From assembly GCA_902609025.1 (NCBI GenBank), contig CACLQD010000004.1, forward strand, positions 17,501 to 50,476: a stretch of DNA of 32,976 bases. The letters run 5' to 3'. Below, piece by piece: positions 14,529 through 28,843 of the stretch. Within the stretch, counting starts at the first letter, position 1, and every line of letters starts with the position of its first letter. This stretch comes from an uncultured PS1 clade bacterium. Its GTDB lineage: Bacteria > Pseudomonadota > Alphaproteobacteria > MED-G09. The notes beneath the pieces are model-generated. The model was given only the letters and a program-made list of their open reading frames with translations, had not been told where the DNA came from and made no database searches. The position numbers and the translations under genes were made by a program.

Positions 14529-15230
14529 TTAAAAGGTTGTTTCATTCTCAACTTCTGTTTTTTCTAAACCTTCTAAATCTTCTCCGGTAACAACAAAATA
14601 AGTTTCCTCAGCCACATTAGTTGCTTGATCACCAACTCTTTCAAGATATCTAGCAATAAATAATAGGGGAACTAAGGCATCTGTTGCATCAGGGTTTGTT
14701 TTAATGGAGTTAAGTATGTCCATCAATATTTCAGAATATAATGAGTCTATTTCGCTATCAGATTTCCAAACTTTAACTGAATTTTCACACTCTTTTTTAG
14801 AATAATCCTCCATAACAATCCTTAAGTTAGAGTGGACCATTGAACACATATTAACTAAGAGGCTAATTGTTTCAGGTGATTGTGCCTCATTAAGGTCGCC
14901 TTTTAATACGCGATTAGATATTCCTTTACACATATCACCACATCTCTCTAAATATAATGAAATTTTAACTGCCGAAAATACTATTCTGAGGTCAATAGCC
15001 ATAGGTTGTCTCGAAGCAAGTATATTAAAAACCTTATTTTCAACTGATTGACCAAGATCATTAATTATAAGATCATTTTTTATAATTTTTTGTGCCAATT
15101 CATGATCGTTATTCTTTAATAAAGTTTCAATATTATTTAAGGCTCCGAGAACTTCACCACCCATGCTTATCACACCATCTGATATCTCTTTTAAGTCATC
15201 ATCATAAGAACTTACAATATGTTCAGTCAT
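14529..15230 (-). CDS. phoU: Phosphate-signalling protein PhoU
   Basis: Two PhoU helical repeats (RQPMAIDLRIVFSAVKISLYLERCGDMCKGI; LLFIARYLERVGDQATNVAEE) next to pstB. Confidence 0.95.
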   Translation of the reverse strand: MTEHIVSSYDDDLKEISDGVISMGGEVLGALNNIETLLKNNDHELAQKIIKNDLIINDLGQSVENKVFNILASRQPMAIDLRIVFSAVKISLYLERCGDMCKGISNRVLKGDLNEAQSPETISLLVNMCSMVHSNLRIVMEDYSKKECENSVKVWKSDSEIDSLYSEILMDILNSIKTNPDATDALVPLLFIARYLERVGDQATNVAEETYFVVTGEDLEGLEKTEVENETTF

Positions 15231-15238
15231 ATTCTATC

Positions 15239-16051
15239 CTAACCATAACGCCCAGTTACATAGGCTTCTGTTTGTTCATTTTCAGGTGATCTAAAAATAT
15301 TTTCAGTATCACCTACCTCAATTAAATTCCCTAAATGAAAAAAAGCGGTTCTCTGGGAAACTCTTGCAGCTTGCTGCATAGAATGAGTAACAATTACTAT
15401 TGTATAGTTTGTTTTTAATTCATCAATTAATTCTTCTATCTTAGCTGTTGCAATTGGATCAAGTGCCGAGCAAGGTTCATCCATTAAAATAATCTCAGGA
15501 TCTACGGCTATTGCCCTAGCAATACATAATCTTTGTTGCTGACCTCCTGATAAGCTAGTTCCAGGTTCGTTTAGACGATCTTTTATTTCATCCCATAAAC
15601 CAGCCCTAACAAGACTTGCCTCTACTTTATGAGACATTTCATCCTTATCAGCAATTTTCCCGTGCAGTCTTGGTCCATAAGCTACATTGTCAAAAACAGA
15701 TTTTGGAAATGGATTTGGTTTTTGAAAAACCATTCCTATACGAGACCTTAATTCCACTACATCTATATTTGGATTATAAATATCTTCACCGTTGATTGTT
15801 ATATTTCCAGAAATTGAGCATGAATCGATTACATCATTCATTCTATTAAGACATCTTAAAAAAGTAGATTTTCCACATCCAGATGGTCCAATTAAAGATG
15901 TGACCTCTTTCTCATTGATTCCTAAACTAACATTATATAATGCCTGCTTATCTCCGTAAAAAACATCAACATTTTTACAATCTATTAAAAGGTTATTATC
16001 CGAAGAATAATTTCCATTTGGTTTAATATCATTTTCTGTGCCATCTACCAT
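15239..16051 (-). CDS. pstB: Phosphate ABC transporter ATP-binding protein
   Basis: Walker [77 protein letters not shown]. Confidence 0.98.
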
Positions 16052-17286
16052 TTTAATTGATACTTTTTCCTTAAAATTACTGCAGCTAAATTTATTATTA
16101 TTAATAAGAATATCAAAACTAAGGTCGCTGCGCTAGTTTTTGCTACAAAAGCTCTTTCTGGACTATCCGCCCAAAGATATACTTGAACGGGCAAAGCCGT
16201 TGCAGGATCAGTAAATGACCCCGGTATATCTACAACAAATGCTACCATTCCTATTAAAAGTAAGGGAGCAGATTCACCGAAAGCTCTTGCTAAACCTATT
16301 ATTGTACCTGTTAAAATTCCTGGTAAAGCAGCTGGAAGCAGATGTTGAAATACAACCTGCATCTCTGAAGCTCCCACTGCAAGTGCCGCCTCCCTAATTG
16401 ATGGAGGTACAGATTGAAGAGATGCGCGTGTAGCTATTATTATGACTGGTAAAGTCATAAGAGATAACACACAACCTCCAACTAAAGGAGCTGATCGAGG
16501 CATACCAAAAAAATTGATAAATAAGGCAAGTCCTAGTAGGCCAAAAACAATTGAAGGAACTGCCGCGAGATTGTTAATATTTACCTCTATAAAATCAGTA
16601 AGTTTATTTTTTGGAGCAAAGCTCTCTAAATAAATTGCAGAAAGGACGCCAATAGGAAAACTAATTATCAAAGTTATTAAAATAGTTAATAAAGATCCAA
16701 TAACAGCTCCTAGGACTCCTGCAATTTCAGGTTCTCGACTATCACCATTTGTAAATAAGTTTGTTGAAAATCTTTTTTCAACTAGGCCCAATTCTTTGAA
16801 TCCATTAAGCCAAGTTATTTCTCTATCATTCAACCTTCTCTCACTCTCTGGTAAACTATTATCAATTCCAAACTTATAAAATAAATCAGCATCATCAGAG
16901 AAAAGGATAAACTTACTAAAATCTTTTCCAATTAAGGAAGGATCATTCTCAATTGTATCTCTTAGTTCATATGCAGCACCAGATGAAAATAATCTCAAAA
17001 ACTCTTTTCTGCATTTCCTATCATCACAACCAGAATCTAATAAAGAAATATTGTCTCTAATTAAACGACGATAATTTATATTATCTTGAGCAATATTTTC
17101 TTTAGATAAATTAATACTTAGATTTAAACCGTAGTTTGTGAATGCTGGAATAGATCGATAAGTCATAGAGGAAATAATGACTACTAACATTATCAAAGCT
17201 ATCGCTAAAGATGCTTGACCATAAAATCTAAATCTTTTTTCAGCTGATTGTCTTTTTAACATCATACTATTAATATTTTTACTCAT
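16045..17286 (-). CDS. pstA: Phosphate ABC transporter permease PstA
   Basis: [48 protein letters not shown]; overlaps pstB and pstC. Confidence 0.94.
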
Positions 17287-18664
17287 ATCTTTCTCTATAT
17301 TTTCTAACCGTAACCATAGCTAAGATATTCAATACCAAAGTTATAAAAAATAAAACTAAACCTAGAGCAAAAGCAGCAAGGGTCTTAGGGCTATCGAACT
17401 CTTGATCGCCAACTAATAGAGTAACAATTTGAACTGTAACGGTAGTCACAGCAGAAAGAGGATTTGCAGTTAAATTTGCTGCCAATCCAGCCGCCATAAC
17501 TACAATCATTGTTTCCCCTATAGCTCTTGATATTGCAAGCAATATTGCTCCAACAATTCCTGGTAAAGCAGCAGGAAATATTACTTTTCTTATAGTTTCA
17601 GACTTAGTAGCGCCTAAAGCTAAAGAGCCGTCTCTCAAACTTTCAGGCACTGCGGTCATAACATCATCTGATAATGACGATACATAAGGGATAATCATGA
17701 TACCCATAACCAAACCAGCAGCTAATGCAGATTCTGTTGAAACTGTAAGGCCGAGACTTTCTCCTGTAGACCTAATAAAAGGACCAACGGATAATGCAGC
17801 AAAAAAACCATATACCACAGTCGGAATTCCAGCCAGTATTTCAAGAATTGGCTTAAAATAATTTCTTACTTTAGGTCTAGCATATTGAGATAAATAAATA
17901 GCTGAGTATAAACCTAAAGGAACAGCTATTAACATAGATATGGCAGTTATTAAAAGAGTTCCTGTAAATATTGGGATGGCTCCAAAACTTCCAGATGACC
18001 CAACTTGACCCTCTCTAATAGCTGTTTGTGGAGACCAATGAATTCCAAATAGAAATTCACTAAAACTAACTTGCGAAAAAAATCTAACTGTTTCAAAAAT
18101 TAAAGATAAAATAATTCCAAAAGTAGTCAAAACAGCAACTATGGAAAAAACAAAGAAAATAAACTTTAATATTTTTTCTACATTTCTTCTGGCATCAAAT
18201 CTAACATTAAGCTTTTTACCAGCAAGATACGCCAAGAAAGTAGTTATACAGATTATTAAGGTTAAAAATCCAGCTCTATAAAAGAAATAATAATTATATA
18301 ATGAATTTGCTGAATCGGTCGATAAAATCTCCAAAGATAGGATCGATTGCAAATTATGAATGTTATTTCTAAGAATACTTACTGAGAAATCTACTTCCTC
18401 CCGCCCTAACAAAATTAGTGAATTTGGTAGGTGATTCTGAATAATCACTCCCTTAATAAAGCCATCAATAGAAATGAATACAATAAGAAATATGATACAA
18501 GGCAATAAACTAGATAAAATTACAAATAGACCATGATAGTTTGGCATTGATCTTAGGGGCTTACCCTGAATAAGAAGAGATTGTGCGCGATTCCTAAAAA
18601 ATAGAAATGATAGTAATCCAATTAAAGTAATTACAGTTAAACTTATGATTATATCTATATTAAT
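17279..18664 (-). CDS. pstC: Phosphate ABC transporter permease PstC; proposed ATT start at 18664 (track's first ATG is 18547)
   Basis: DGSLALGATKSETIRKVIFPAALPGIVGAILLAISRAIGETMIVVMAAG. The open frame continues upstream of ATG 18547 as INIDIIISLTVITLIGLLSFLFFRNRAQSLLIQGKPLRS-MPNYHGLF, a TM helix plus linker typical of alphaproteobacterial PstC N-termini. Confidence 0.9.
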   Translation of the reverse strand: MNIDIIISLTVITLIGLLSFLFFRNRAQSLLIQGKPLRSMPNYHGLFVILSSLLPCIIFLIVFISIDGFIKGVIIQNHLPNSLILLGREEVDFSVSILRNNIHNLQSILSLEILSTDSANSLYNYYFFYRAGFLTLIICITTFLAYLAGKKLNVRFDARRNVEKILKFIFFVFSIVAVLTTFGIILSLIFETVRFFSQVSFSEFLFGIHWSPQTAIREGQVGSSGSFGAIPIFTGTLLITAISMLIAVPLGLYSAIYLSQYARPKVRNYFKPILEILAGIPTVVYGFFAALSVGPFIRSTGESLGLTVSTESALAAGLVMGIMIIPYVSSLSDDVMTAVPESLRDGSLALGATKSETIRKVIFPAALPGIVGAILLAISRAIGETMIVVMAAGLAANLTANPLSAVTTVTVQIVTLLVGDQEFDSPKTLAAFALGLVLFFITLVLNILAMVTVRKYRERYE

Positions 18665-18689
18665 ATCTAACCTCTTAATTCAAAGAGAA

Positions 18690-19745
18690 TTAAAGTTCAA
18701 GCTCAACTAGGTTTATAGTATTTATTTTTACTTCTTCATACTCATTTTCAGACAAAGGAATTAAGCCCTTGTCTGCAAGATATCCATCAAACCCCATAGC
18801 GCCCTCACTTGTAAATTCTTTCGCAAAATTTAATAATGAAGGTTTAATCCTTATATGATTCTTTTTAATATAAAAGTATAGAGATCTAGAAATTACATAA
18901 TCTCCAGAAAGTATTTTTTCGAATTCTGGTTCAACTCCATTAACATTGGAACCTTGCAATTTATCAGAGTTCTGTTCAAGAAAACTATACCCAAATATTC
19001 CTATAGCATTTGGATTAGCTTCAAGCTTTTGAACAATTAAATTATCATTTTCTCCAGCTTCAATATATGAGCCGTCCTCTCTTATAGTTCTTGCAATTCT
19101 TTTAAACTCACCTTTGCCTTCTTTAGAGCTACTCCTTAGGTCTTTTAAAGCAGTAAAAGATTTTGCTCCACTATCCATTGCTAGTTCGACAAAAGCATCT
19201 CTTGTGCCTGAAGTCGGTGGTGGCCCAAGAACCTCTATTTTTATATTTGGTAACTCTGCATTAACATCTTTCCAAGTCTTATTTGGATTATCTATTAAAG
19301 TTAAATCATTATCATTAACTGGTATTTCTTTTGCTAAGGCAAGATAAATATCTCGAGTTGTCAAATTATACAAAGTACCTTTTTTTGAATTAGCTAGGAC
19401 AATTCCATCATAACCAACTTTAACTTCTATAATCCTAATCCCATTTTCAGAACATGTATTGTATTCATTCTGCTTTATCCTTCTTGAAGCATTAGTTATA
19501 TCGGGATATTCAAAACCAATGCCTGAGCAAAAAAGCTTCATACCGCCTCCAGATCCAGTTGATTCAACTATAGGCGTTTTAAATTTGGTTGATCTGCCAA
19601 ATTCTTCAGCGACAGCTGTTGAAAAAGGAAAAACAGTTGAAGAACCTACGATGCGGATCTGATCATTTGCATAACCCTCTTGTGGTAAAATGAAGGGAGA
19701 TATTAATAAAGATACAAACAGAACTTTTTTTAAACTTTTTTTCAT
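18690..19745 (-). CDS. pstS: Phosphate ABC transporter substrate-binding protein
   Basis: Signal peptide, IRIVGSSTVFPFSTAVAEEFGR, ESTGSGGGMKLFCSG, GPPPTSGTRDAFVEL. Confidence 0.95.
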   Translation of the reverse strand: MKKSLKKVLFVSLLISPFILPQEGYANDQIRIVGSSTVFPFSTAVAEEFGRSTKFKTPIVESTGSGGGMKLFCSGIGFEYPDITNASRRIKQNEYNTCSENGIRIIEVKVGYDGIVLANSKKGTLYNLTTRDIYLALAKEIPVNDNDLTLIDNPNKTWKDVNAELPNIKIEVLGPPPTSGTRDAFVELAMDSGAKSFTALKDLRSSSKEGKGEFKRIARTIREDGSYIEAGENDNLIVQKLEANPNAIGIFGYSFLEQNSDKLQGSNVNGVEPEFEKILSGDYVISRSLYFYIKKNHIRIKPSLLNFAKEFTSEGAMGFDGYLADKGLIPLSENEYEEVKINTINLVELEL

Positions 19746-23925: not shown

Positions 23926-24870
23926 TTAGAGGAAAACGTCGTCTTTAACGCCAAAGAGAACACCGCGCATCCAAGCATTTGCTGGATCATCAGTAGATCT
24001 TTTATTCCATATCATTTTGACTGAAAATTCATCTGATTTAAATGGTAGAGAAACTACATCAAATTCATCTTTGTTATTTACTAGAGCACTAACATTACTT
24101 GATAATGATATAATACAATCTGTCTCGCGAACTATCTCAATGGCAGATTGATAATAATTCACTGATACCATTTTATTTCGTTTTCTTCCCATTTTCGCTA
24201 ATGTCACATCTACAGGGCTATTACTGATACCATCTATACTAATAAATACATGGTCTGCAGCTAAAAAGTTTTCAAAACTTATCTTATTATTTTTAATTAA
24301 TGGATGGCCTTTCCTTGCAACGCATCGATAGGTATCACGATAAACTTCAAAACTATCAAAATATTCATCAAATCTTTGACCAACAGGTGAGTCCATTTCC
24401 TGCACCATGTGTGGATCGGCAGCAAGTATAAAATCAATATCATGATTTTTTAATCTTTCTAAAACGCCATTTTGCAAAGCAATATTTGTGATTTTTATTT
24501 TTGGTGCTTCTTTTTGAAGTGTTTGAACTACCCTTGCGGCAACTTTAGATGCAGCAACATCAGGTGTACAAAAAACAAAACTTTTTTCAGACTCTGCTGG
24601 ATTAAAACCTTCACGTGTTAATGTTCCATCAATTAATTCGAGAGCCTTTTTTATAGGACCAACAAATTCTAAGGCTGCAGGCGTTGGTTGCATACGATCG
24701 CCTGATCGAAAAAAAAGATCATCCTTCATTGTGTAACGCAATCTATTAAGAGCGTTACTTACAGCAGATTGGGATAAATTAAGTTTCTCAGAAGCTTTTG
24801 TTATTGAGCCCTCATCAAAGACTGAATCAAAGACAACAAGCAGATTTAAATCAAGATTATTAAAATTCAT
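23926..24870 (-). CDS. LysR-family transcriptional regulator
   Basis: NLDLNLLVVFDSVFDEGSITKASEKLNLSQSAVSNALNRLR HTH followed by a substrate-binding domain. Confidence 0.95.
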   Translation of the reverse strand: MNFNNLDLNLLVVFDSVFDEGSITKASEKLNLSQSAVSNALNRLRYTMKDDLFFRSGDRMQPTPAALEFVGPIKKALELIDGTLTREGFNPAESEKSFVFCTPDVAASKVAARVVQTLQKEAPKIKITNIALQNGVLERLKNHDIDFILAADPHMVQEMDSPVGQRFDEYFDSFEVYRDTYRCVARKGHPLIKNNKISFENFLAADHVFISIDGISNSPVDVTLAKMGRKRNKMVSVNYYQSAIEIVRETDCIISLSSNVSALVNNKDEFDVVSLPFKSDEFSVKMIWNKRSTDDPANAWMRGVLFGVKDDVFL

Positions 24871-24908
24871 TTTGTAAATACTCTACATTTTTATAATTCA
24901 TTTGATAA

Positions 24909-24931
24909 ATATATAGGAGATCACTATATAT
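24909..24931. promoter_or_regulatory. Candidate LysR-type operator ATATATAG-N7-CTATATAT (T-N11-A)
   Basis: Perfect 8-bp dyad with 7-nt spacer between the lysR-like start (24870) and the divergent micro-ORF (24974); architecture of LTTR sites such as ATAC-N7-GTAT. Confidence 0.45.
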
Positions 24932-24973
24932 AAGTCAACATTAATTCACTGACATAGTTTTATAGGAGAAAAA

Positions 24974-25051
24974 ATGTCAATACTTAAAAACATACTACTA
25001 GTGTTCTTATTTGTTTCAGTACTAATAGCAATACAACCTGTTTTTATATAG
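24974..25051 (+). CDS. 25-aa putative single-TM micro-protein (MSILKNILLVFLFVSVLIAIQPVFI)
   Basis: ATG preceded by SD TAGGAGAAAAA; one hydrophobic helix; below the ORF-track length cutoff. Confidence 0.45.
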   Translation: MSILKNILLVFLFVSVLIAIQPVFI

Positions 25052-25115
25052 TTTCAATAATCAGTCAATATTGATTTAACTGATTTAACAAAATTTAGCT
25101 GAAAGGCAAACGGTA

Positions 25116-25170
25116 TTGGGTAATCTTACCATCCTTCCCCCTCCCAACCCTTCAAGGTGAGGTTACCCAA
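25116..25170 (+). ncRNA. Candidate structured RNA: 15-bp stem with 25-nt C-rich (CCUCCC) loop
   Basis: TTGGGTAATCTTACC / GGTGAGGTTACCCAA pair over 15 bp (13 Watson-Crick, 2 G-U on the + strand); loop ATCCTTCCCCCTCCCAACCCTTCAA lacks G. Confidence 0.5.
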
Positions 25171-25188
25171 AAAATTTAGGAAAGAAAA

Positions 25189-25350
25189 ATGAATTTAAAT
25201 AAAGATATAATAGATTTTAAGGAACCAGAACTTAGAAAAAAAGTTGATAGAATCCAATATGAGAGAGAAATGACTTCAATAGCTATATTTTTATTTATTG
25301 AAAAGCTTTCAAAATTCTTCGGTATTTCCCAATCACAATTCAAACAGTAA
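25189..25350 (+). CDS. 53-aa small protein of unknown function
   Basis: MNLNKDIIDFKEPELRKKVDRIQYEREMTSIAIFLFIEKLSKFFGISQSQFKQ; SD TTTAGGAAAGAAAA 5' of the ATG; directly downstream of the stem-loop. Confidence 0.55.
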   Translation: MNLNKDIIDFKEPELRKKVDRIQYEREMTSIAIFLFIEKLSKFFGISQSQFKQ

Positions 25351-25388
25351 TTTAAAACAATAACAATTTGCTCTATATTTTCTCTGTG

Positions 25389-26249
25389 ATGAGAGAAAAT
25401 ACAATTGTTGTTGATGGATTAACTTTTCCTGAAGGCCCAAGGTGGTATAAGGATAAATTATATTTTTCGGATTTTTTTACACATCAAGTTTACGCTACAG
25501 ACCCCCTAGGGAACTGCAATAGTATACTTAGAGTACCTAACCAGCCATCTGGTTTAGGTTGGTTGCCTGATGGAACTCTTCTTGTTGTTTCTATGATTGA
25601 TCAAAAAGTTTTAGCATATAAAGATAATGCATTAACAGAATATGCTGATTGTTCTGAATATGCCAATTTTCATTGTAACGATATGATAGTGAATACGAAT
25701 GGGTATGCATATATTGGGAATTTTGGTTTTAACAGTCGTAATAATGAAAGCATCAAATCAACAAATCTCATTCTTGTTCGACCGAATGAGAAACCTGTAG
25801 TAGCTGCAGATGATCTTTATTTCCCTAACGGAACAATCATAACAGAGAACAACAAAACTTTAATAATAGGTGAAACTTACGCTGCAAAATTAACTGCTTT
25901 TGATATTAATGATGATGGATCATTATCAAACAGAAGAGTATGGGCTGATTTAGCTAATATAGAGAAAGACTATAGGCCAGTTCCTGATGGAATATGTCTT
26001 GATGAAGAAAATGCCATTTGGATGGCCTCTCCAAGCACAAATGAAGTCCTTCGAATAAAAGAAGGCGGCATCATACTTGATAAAATAGGTGTTCAAACAA
26101 ATGCCTATGCTTGTGTTTTAGGTGGAAAAGATAGAAAAACATTATTTGTTTGCACATCAGGAGGATCGGATATGCAATCCTGTATAAAGAAGAAAGAAGG
26201 TAGAATAGAATCGTTTCAAGTTGATATTCCAGGAGCTGGAATTCCATAA
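25389..26249 (+). CDS. SMP-30/gluconolactonase/LRE family protein
   Basis: VVDGLTFPEGPRWYKDKLYFSDF, QPSGLGWLPDGTLLVVSM, CNDMIVNTNGYAYIGNFGF, PDGICLDEENAIWMA beta-propeller repeats. ATG 25389 preferred over TTG 25368. Confidence 0.92.
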   Translation: MRENTIVVDGLTFPEGPRWYKDKLYFSDFFTHQVYATDPLGNCNSILRVPNQPSGLGWLPDGTLLVVSMIDQKVLAYKDNALTEYADCSEYANFHCNDMIVNTNGYAYIGNFGFNSRNNESIKSTNLILVRPNEKPVVAADDLYFPNGTIITENNKTLIIGETYAAKLTAFDINDDGSLSNRRVWADLANIEKDYRPVPDGICLDEENAIWMASPSTNEVLRIKEGGIILDKIGVQTNAYACVLGGKDRKTLFVCTSGGSDMQSCIKKKEGRIESFQVDIPGAGIP

Positions 26250-26299: not shown

Positions 26300-28843
26300 T
26301 TAATAATTAAATTTAGCTCTAACACCAATAGATCTTGGAGCTCCATATCTTGCAAAGTTCCAAAGTGTAGCAACTGGGTTAGCAGATACTCTGAATGTTT
26401 CATCAGTAAGGTTTTTACCCCAAAGTGTAAGTGCCATATTTTCATTAACTTCCCAAGTCACAAAACCATTAACAAGCGTTCTTTCTTCAGCTTGTGTATT
26501 ACGCTTTTGTATTATTACTGGATTATCGTTAGTGCCTCCGGCTGCATTTGCAGGTAGTGGGCTTAATTCAAATTCATCACGATGATGGAAACCTAAATTA
26601 TATATAAGTGAACCACCTGAAGCTAAATCCTGGAAGTATGTTACAGATAAACCAGCAGTTAATTCTGGAGAAAATGGAACATTAAGACTTGAAAGATCAG
26701 GATTAATTGTAACACCAGAAGGTGCTCCAGCTATTAATGTACCAGCATCTAAACCAGGAGCATATTCATCATATTCATGATCTAGTATACCTAAGAAACC
26801 ATCAAAACGTAGGTTATCTGTTGGAACGTAAGTAGCTTCAATTTCAAAACCAGTTGCTGTTGATTCACCTTCGTTAACAGCAGCAGTTTCCTGGAATTGT
26901 GTATCACCAACTAGACGAACTTTTACTGAATCTCTTTGAAGACTTTCATACTCTGTTTGAAACACAGCAGCATTCAATCTTAATCTACCTTCCATAAGAT
27001 CAGCTTTAACACCAATTTCGATATTAGTATTTTCTTCATCATTATAAGGTTTACATGTAAATGTTGATCCACAAGTTTCTGTGAAACCACCTGCAACATA
27101 ACCTGTTGCAATACTTCCGTATATTAAAGTGTTTTCATTCATTGCATAATCAAGAACAATTCTCCATGTATCAGCTTCAAAATCCTTACTATCATCGATA
27201 GCAACACCAAAGTCTTCTTTGTTCAAAGGATTTGTCCAAGGACCTAAATATTGATCAGGTGTAAAGATTAAAGCAAAGCTTGCGCCATCAGGTGCAAATT
27301 GACGTCTATAGAAATCTTTTTCATCTTCTGTGTGTCTAGCTCCAACTGTTAATTTCAATTGGTCACTAATGTCATAACTTGCATCAATATAAACAGCTTT
27401 ACTTGTTCTATCCTGACCAGAAGCCTGAATTTCAGCAACATTTGCAAACTGTAATGCTCCTGAAGTACCAGTAGGTGAAATTAGATCAACAAAACCTAAA
27501 TTACCATAAACAAGAAACTCAACATCATCAGTATAATAAGCAGCGCCGGCAACAAAATTGAAAGGCCCATCAAATTCAGTAGTTACTCTGAATTCTTGTT
27601 GGAATTGCTCTCTTCTTGTATTTCTTGCAGCATCATAAAGTGATGTAAAAGACTCACCAGTATATGTACTATTTAATATTTCATCTTGATCTCTTTGACC
27701 TGTTATAGATTTAAGAGTGAAATTTTCAAAATTAAATGTTTGAGTAAGATAAACACCTTCAACTTCGATTTCGTGACCTCTACCAACACAAGTAAATGTG
27801 TTACATGTTTGAGATTCACCAGTTATGAAAGGGTTGCCTGGATAAGGTCCATCCCTATAGCCAGGGAAACCTAAATTTGGAAATAAATAAGCTTCTGCGC
27901 CGCCGCCAGGTGTATCGTTGGCTGTAGCAGGAGCATCACCTTGATCATCAAGTAATTCATAAGTGAAATCTGCTCTATAGAAATCATTAGGCTGATAAAG
28001 CACTTTAAATTTAGCAGCAAGAACATCTTTACCACCTATTTTACCACCATTACCTACTGATGTATAAGTGCCATCAGCATTTTTAGTAGTACCCACATCA
28101 TTAATTTGACCGCCTTCTGAATATAAAGCTGTTGACCCTGGGCCACCAAATGAAACAATACTTCCAGATGGTTTGCTATTTGTCCAATAACCTTCTTCTT
28201 CATCTTGAATAACGGATATACGAACAGCTAAAGTATCTCCAATTGGGAAATTAATTGCTGCATTTATTTTTTCAATTGACGCATCATTTGAAGCATATTG
28301 ACCATAAGTGGCCTCAACATCAAAGGTTGTTTCACCAAGAACGGGTTTCTTAGTAGTGAAAGCGATCGCGCCACCAGTTGTGTTTTTACCAAAAAGTGTT
28401 CCTTGAGGACCACGATAAATCTCAACTTGCTCCATATCAAACATCTCAATTGCTTGAGCTTGAACATGGTTAAAAGCAAAATCATCAACGACAATACCAA
28501 CAGACGGGTCTTTAGTAACAAGAATAGAAATAAATCCTGTACCACGCATACCACCTGCAATAGCATTAAAGCCATTTTGAGGAGTTAATGTTACATTAGG
28601 TGCAAGCTGTCCTAGTGCAAATACATCATTTCTAAATGTATTTTCTAGCTGTTGTTCAGTAATTGTTGATACAGCTATTGGAACATCTTGTTGAGAAATA
28701 TCTCTCTTAGTACCTGTAACAATAATTTCTTCAATACCAAGACGGCCGTCTGAAACAGACTCAGCATCTTGGGCATTAATTGAAGAAGTAATTCCCATTG
28801 TTAATATGAAAGAAAAAATAGTTAAATATCTAATCGAAAGCAT
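26300..28843 (-). CDS. TonB-dependent outer-membrane receptor
   Basis: Signal peptide MLSIRYLTIFSFILTMGITSSINAQ, TonB-box-like IEEIIVTGTK, plug VEIYRGPQGTLFGKNTTGGAIAFTTKKP, C-terminal beta-barrel ending GVRAKFNY. Confidence 0.95.
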   Translation of the reverse strand: MLSIRYLTIFSFILTMGITSSINAQDAESVSDGRLGIEEIIVTGTKRDISQQDVPIAVSTITEQQLENTFRNDVFALGQLAPNVTLTPQNGFNAIAGGMRGTGFISILVTKDPSVGIVVDDFAFNHVQAQAIEMFDMEQVEIYRGPQGTLFGKNTTGGAIAFTTKKPVLGETTFDVEATYGQYASNDASIEKINAAINFPIGDTLAVRISVIQDEEEGYWTNSKPSGSIVSFGGPGSTALYSEGGQINDVGTTKNADGTYTSVGNGGKIGGKDVLAAKFKVLYQPNDFYRADFTYELLDDQGDAPATANDTPGGGAEAYLFPNLGFPGYRDGPYPGNPFITGESQTCNTFTCVGRGHEIEVEGVYLTQTFNFENFTLKSITGQRDQDEILNSTYTGESFTSLYDAARNTRREQFQQEFRVTTEFDGPFNFVAGAAYYTDDVEFLVYGNLGFVDLISPTGTSGALQFANVAEIQASGQDRTSKAVYIDASYDISDQLKLTVGARHTEDEKDFYRRQFAPDGASFALIFTPDQYLGPWTNPLNKEDFGVAIDDSKDFEADTWRIVLDYAMNENTLIYGSIATGYVAGGFTETCGSTFTCKPYNDEENTNIEIGVKADLMEGRLRLNAAVFQTEYESLQRDSVKVRLVGDTQFQETAAVNEGESTATGFEIEATYVPTDNLRFDGFLGILDHEYDEYAPGLDAGTLIAGAPSGVTINPDLSSLNVPFSPELTAGLSVTYFQDLASGGSLIYNLGFHHRDEFELSPLPANAAGGTNDNPVIIQKRNTQAEERTLVNGFVTWEVNENMALTLWGKNLTDETFRVSANPVATLWNFARYGAPRSIGVRAKFNY

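Follow-up and report, generated by a model that had tools for sequence, protein, structure and literature searches.

The window, the whole stretch of 32,976 nucleotides that was analysed, derives from an incomplete genome of 0.9 Mb and contains a long hairpin, SL2, situated between two small open reading frames (ORF1 and ORF2) beside a gene for a LysR-type regulator. The regulator gene (23926-24870, minus strand; PF00126, 1.2e-16; PF03466, 1e-14) diverges from ORF1 in all loci read, and its orthologues in other genera are 47-55% identical. Its product scores best against LeuO/BsrA-type models, every score falling below the cut-off. Named relatives recovered with this protein are genomes of the OCS116 cluster, PS1 clade or 'Rhodobiaceae' and of MED-G09, which places the host in the Alphaproteobacteria, as the original prediction had supposed; a SAR86 host, to which the gene content had pointed, is thereby rejected. 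An AT-rich block, TATAATTCATTTGATAAATA (24892-24911), lies between the LysR gene and ORF1 and is readable in loci of the window's genus (g1) and of genera g2 and g3; it is a candidate LysR operator or promoter. Further upstream, positions 14529-19745 of the window carry a pst/phoU-type operon for phosphate uptake, named from its translations.

ORF1 (24974-25051, plus strand) encodes a 25-residue signal-peptide-like peptide, MSILKNILLVFLFVSVLIAIQPVFI, with a pN/pS of 0.11 within the genus. In g3 the same position is occupied by a 102-residue secreted PAN-domain protein (PF00024, 2.6e-6; L023:1148-1456, and the minus strand of L091) whose N-terminus is similar to ORF1. ORF1 is probably a signal-peptide-like remnant of such a PAN-domain protein that is still under selection. 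ORF2 (25189-25350, plus strand) encodes a 53-residue protein with a pN/pS of 0.06 in g1 and 0.29 in g3, and both ORFs are under purifying selection. Members of the ORF2 family are 44-53 residues long and share the pattern I-I/V-D/N-F-K-x-P-x-L ... I-E-x-x-R. No match to ORF2 was found in Pfam or NCBIfam, and we regard it as founding a new small protein family. A relationship to DUF1127 proteins was considered and rejected: there is no Pfam match for ORF2, and PF06568 stays below its cut-off family-wide. The gene for an SMP-30/gluconolactonase-like protein (25386-26249, plus strand; PF08450, 6.3e-42) follows ORF2 in g1 and g2 only, its place 3' of ORF2 being taken in g3 by a convergent gene; it is context and not a component of the module.

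The arms of SL2, TTGGGTAATCTTACC (25116-25130) and GGTGAGGTTACCCAA (25156-25170), form 15 base pairs on the plus strand, including two U-G pairs, and enclose a 25-nt G-free loop, AUCCUUCCCCCUCCCAACCCUUCAA (25131-25155), with the core CCCUCCCA. The original prediction had described this structure exactly, and had correctly set the 53-residue ORF 18 nt past the stem, with its start at 25189. It had also held that SL2 is not a plus-strand terminator; indeed, no U-tract lies 3' of the stem and no terminator-like site was found in 24850-25420. A second, smaller hairpin, SL1 (25098-25107, plus strand; GCU-GAAA-GGC), precedes SL2 and is weak in the window (-2.3 kcal/mol); its g3 counterpart is a hairpin of 5-7 bp whose arms differ yet pair (CAACC..GGUUG; CGAUC..GAUCG). 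RNAfold returns the same 15-bp SL2 stem from the window sequence. The folding energy of SL2 is, however, within chance (z -1.77 against shuffles, 11 of 200 of which fold equally well), so a single sequence could not settle whether the hairpin is real. Its reality rests instead on comparison, that is, on covariation, conservation and strand asymmetry.

Eighteen genomes of the family were searched twice and separately, once with a covariance model of five hairpin copies and once with a profile of the ORF2 protein. Both searches converge on one and the same locus in 15 of them, and the three genomes without a match are incomplete assemblies. Most of these loci (12 of 15) hold one hairpin, while G013 and G016 have two and G014 three, always in tandem and directly 5' of ORF2. 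In G016 (L147), the tandem duplication seems, read by eye, to take in the start of ORF2, with ATGATTAAAGTATTG left behind as a short remnant that separates the hairpins. The gap from the last hairpin to ORF2 is 15-23 nt in the 11 genomes that were measured on clean sequence and 11 nt in the N-bearing G007. No dispersed hairpin copies were detected in any family genome, further matches having E > 0.05 or falling at the same places on the other strand, and the loop pattern with two mismatches gave about as many matches across the family as the reversed-pattern control. A second DNA match in the window's own genome (L002) proved to be the AT-rich initiation region of another gene, with no hairpin.

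Within g1, the hairpin is kept in five genomes with no differences in the 25-nt loop. The mean pairwise loop difference among these five species is 0, as against synonymous-site differences of 0.255 in ORF2 and 0.204 in ORF1. Stem differences in this genus are confined to the 3' arm, which reads GGTGAGGTT or GGTGGGATT, each of which pairs with the invariant 5' arm. In two other genera the stems are largely unlike those of g1 (GGACAATCCC...GGGATTGTCC), with a loop of the same kind. Across copies, the loops are 19-25 nt long, C-rich and nearly G-free; CCUCC is present in 17 of 19 and CUCCCA in 16 of 19, and the C-rich core is common to three genera. The anti-Shine-Dalgarno-like character originally ascribed to the loop is thus a conserved feature.

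Covariation was assessed on a MAFFT alignment of 19 hairpin copies with 15 pairs. Paired cells amount to 93.7%, compared with 82.5 +/- 1.1 in shuffles (none of 500 as high) and 38-52% in slid-structure controls. Changes on both sides affect 11 of the 15 stem pairs, compared with 5.3 in shuffles, and RNAalifold finds the same helix in this alignment unprompted. Near relatives differ on both sides of the stem (G011/G015, GGACAACCUC...GAGGUUGUCC, versus G012/G010, GGACAAUCCC...GGGAUUGUCC), as do tandem copies within one genome; by inspection, the changes therefore represent several events, not one. The metagenome assembly G007 (L015/L098) contains many N and its hairpin is mismatched; noise in the assembly may account for these broken pairs. 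SL2 is thus almost certainly a conserved structured RNA. A stem neither conserved nor covarying among relatives, which was to have counted against the original prediction, is not what the comparison shows: the stem covaries, and the loop is kept.

The strand of this RNA can be read from its wobble pairs. The 14 inner pairs contain 17 G-U cells versus 2 C-A cells, indicating an RNA of plus polarity. A count over distinct rows that takes in the outermost pair as well, unformed in the majority of copies from outside g1, gives 11 G-U versus 7 A-C. Covariance model scores for the well-matched copies are 50-76 bits on the plus strand versus 17-29 on the opposite strand. The polarity first proposed from the two wobble pairs in the window is therefore upheld.

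No family in Rfam 15 lies over SL2 in the window at the gathering threshold. With E up to 5, the sole Rfam overlap with the hairpin in five relatives was an XIST intron motif, on the opposite strand and at chance level, so the scan offered no known family that would explain the hairpin otherwise. Run over 142 and 385 alphaproteobacterial genomes, the hairpin model gave weak matches only outside the family, none of them credible. The leading matches were rejected as apparent stretches within or antisense to genes, a terminator-like hairpin after 5S rRNA, or chance C-runs. As far as searched (Rfam 15 and the 142 and 385 genomes), no described RNA family matches the hairpin and no credible copy lies outside the host's family.

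Several alphaproteobacterial RNAs nonetheless resemble it. The cuckoo/alpha-r14 RNAs, such as CcsR1-4 of Rhodobacter and NfeR1 of Sinorhizobium, and those of CIN1 loci, have a CCUCCUCCC loop, divergent stems round this common anti-Shine-Dalgarno loop and tandem hairpins (PMC3927594, PMC10746234), and a small ORF, CcaF1, accompanies the CcsR RNAs (PMC10253847). The hairpin shares with them its host class, variable stems round an anti-Shine-Dalgarno-like common loop and a small ORF in the layout, though one hairpin rather than two or three is the rule here. In contrast, the loop here is CCCCCUCCCAA-like, a perfect CCUCCUCCC occurs in none of the 19 copies, a DUF1127 neighbour (PF06568) exceeds the curated cut-off in none of the 18 family genomes, and the hairpin lies between two ORFs at one locus per genome and not at a 3' end before a terminator. 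Because the perfect motif, the DUF1127 neighbour and the terminator were looked for and are absent, we do not class it as cuckoo/alpha-r14. Of the link to these RNAs drawn in the original prediction, the resemblance in working stands; membership does not, given the loop, the lack of DUF1127 and the lack of an Rfam match.

The AbcR RNAs pair through an M1 motif, CUCCCA (PMC5461406), and AbcR1 and AbcR2 go together with the LysR regulators VtlR and LsrB and have uptake systems as known targets (PMC5461406, PMC12595884). Here, M1 stands in the hairpin loop, and a LysR gene is nearby; however, the M2 motif GUUCCC, which AbcR RNAs have between hairpins, is absent from 25080-25200, the structure differs and no terminator follows the hairpin. 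In Caulobacter, the alpha-R8 RNA SisA represses TonB-dependent receptor mRNAs via an anti-Shine-Dalgarno 10-mer (PMC12559287). The alpha-R8 RNAs (SisA-D of Caulobacter, MmgR of Sinorhizobium) likewise carry an anti-Shine-Dalgarno motif with CCUCCC, but their UUUCCUCCCU is single-stranded under a weak hairpin and followed by a terminator, whereas the loop here has another sequence and no terminator follows. A free-standing alpha-R8-like motif was not found by motif search in two sampled PS1 genomes. Finally, GsrN of Caulobacter has a conserved C-rich loop that pairs with a G-tract of the katG leader (PMC5869019). GsrN, however, belongs to the general stress response, sits in another context and activates expression by its pairing. 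The hairpin appears to work like cuckoo/alpha-r14, AbcR or alpha-R8 RNAs yet lacks their defining features.

A candidate target lies in the window itself. The gene for a TonB-dependent receptor (26300-28843, minus strand; PF00593, 1.3e-27) has the initiation region TGTGGGGAGG with the Shine-Dalgarno sequence TGTGGGGAGGTTACACT-ATG, its start being taken as the ATG of MLSIRYLTI at about 28841-28843. In the window, G004 and G011, receptor Shine-Dalgarno sequences are strikingly G-rich (GGGGAGG, GGGGG). Targets were scanned for in stretches of G004 (1.26 Mb) and G011 (0.71 Mb) with home-made gene calls. Across these stretches, loop pairing with initiation regions is no stronger than that of reversed or shuffled loops; register-specific targeting is therefore unsupported. 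GGGG occurs at positions -23 to -3 in 13 of 15 and 11 of 12 TonB-dependent receptors of the two genomes, while Shine-Dalgarno sequences containing GGGG precede 4 of 114 and 7 of 66 other proteins that are exported or anchored in a membrane, and roughly 6-9% of the remaining genes. When receptors, defined by a somewhat stricter pattern, are set against all genes, Fisher tests give 4e-13 and 1e-9 for a class that was picked out after viewing the top pairing matches. Orthologues of AmtB-like and PII-like proteins, named by reading of their sequences, also have G-rich Shine-Dalgarno sequences. A GC-rich alphaproteobacterium with no match to the hairpin model has receptors with GGGGAG-like Shine-Dalgarno sequences too; the signature is therefore wider than the hairpin and need not be a consequence of it. 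Regulation of uptake receptors in trans is plausible; that TonB-dependent receptor mRNAs are the main targets is a tentative suggestion, and we think it somewhat unlikely to be right.

The best explanation of the locus, to which we give about an even chance, is an anti-Shine-Dalgarno RNA module within a LysR-linked mRNA. A single transcript, perhaps under LysR control, would run from ORF1 through SL1 and one to three copies of SL2 to ORF2. The variable stem would display the conserved C-rich, G-poor loop, with its core CCUCCCA, in single-stranded form. Whether or not the transcript is first processed, its loop may then base-pair with G-rich Shine-Dalgarno sequences of other mRNAs, for which TonB-dependent receptor mRNAs are the best candidates, and lower their translation in the manner of the cuckoo/alpha-r14, AbcR and alpha-R8 RNAs. 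We favour this module because of the covariation, the loop kept under changing stems, the tandem hairpins, an Hfq gene (found in 14 of 18 family genomes), the receptor Shine-Dalgarno sequences and the parallel with SisA. Counted against it are loop pairing at control level, a receptor signature that extends beyond hairpin carriers, and the lack of a terminator. That the loop itself acts in trans by base-pairing is about as likely as not.

The spacing of 15-23 nt to ORF2 argues against a purely trans RNA, which would not need it, and brings in the second option of the original prediction, cis control of the 53-residue ORF. Here the hairpin, as part of the ORF2 cistron near its 5' end, would control translation of ORF2, or processing between ORF1 and ORF2. 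Its loop would be read by an RNA or by a protein, which could be ORF2 itself in an autoregulatory role. It lies at a single locus per genome, always 5' of ORF2, and the spacing in the 11 genomes is held even when hairpins multiply; the duplicated stretch in G016 also appears to include the first ORF2 codons. Against this, steady spacing may only reflect the short intergenic gaps of a small genome, the Shine-Dalgarno sequence of ORF2 differs between genera and is not conserved, and in none of the genomes tested does the loop pair over more than 4 nt with the initiation region of ORF2. Such short pairing speaks against direct occlusion but still allows a role in processing or one mediated by a protein. 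We consider cis control possible, if on balance doubtful.

A plain hairpin that stabilises the mRNA or serves its processing 3' of ORF1, with a loop that has no role, would suit an intercistronic site and a long stem in an AT-rich transcript. It is improbable, as conservation is higher in the loop than in the stem (no changes in 25 nt among five species at a synonymous divergence of 0.26, with the core shared by three genera). Very improbable is an element acting as DNA, be it a recombination site, a REP-like repeat, an operator palindrome or the minus-strand G-quadruplex of the original prediction. The inverted repeat does have a G-rich complement and stands in tandem in three genomes, but dispersed copies are absent from the family genomes, the compensatory changes lie beneath an unpaired loop of 19-25 nt, and the strand asymmetry, with higher plus-strand scores and G-U far exceeding C-A in the inner pairs, gives the G-quadruplex no support. 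A chance hairpin, which the weak energy z-score by itself would allow, is refuted by covariation, and conservation, the single-locus matches and strand asymmetry also tell against it, leaving it next to no probability.

Carried to its furthest extent, the proposed anti-Shine-Dalgarno module would make the LysR regulator, secreted peptide, hairpin and ORF2 a self-contained unit and a new RNA family specific to the PS1/OCS116 lineage. The hairpin RNA would set the uptake profile of the outer membrane through pairing with the uniformly G-rich Shine-Dalgarno sequences of TonB-dependent receptor mRNAs, with ORF2 as a dedicated partner in the way that CcaF1 is for CcsR. We think this extension unlikely in its entirety.

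We know of few structured RNAs from uncultivated, small-genome marine alphaproteobacteria. The one described here has strong covariation behind it, is without an Rfam entry and is accompanied by a regulator and by two small proteins that are conserved. Action on TonB-dependent receptors, if real, would suggest that C-rich anti-Shine-Dalgarno RNAs for nutrient uptake arose repeatedly in the Alphaproteobacteria, with the G-rich Shine-Dalgarno sequence of the receptors as their shared target signature.
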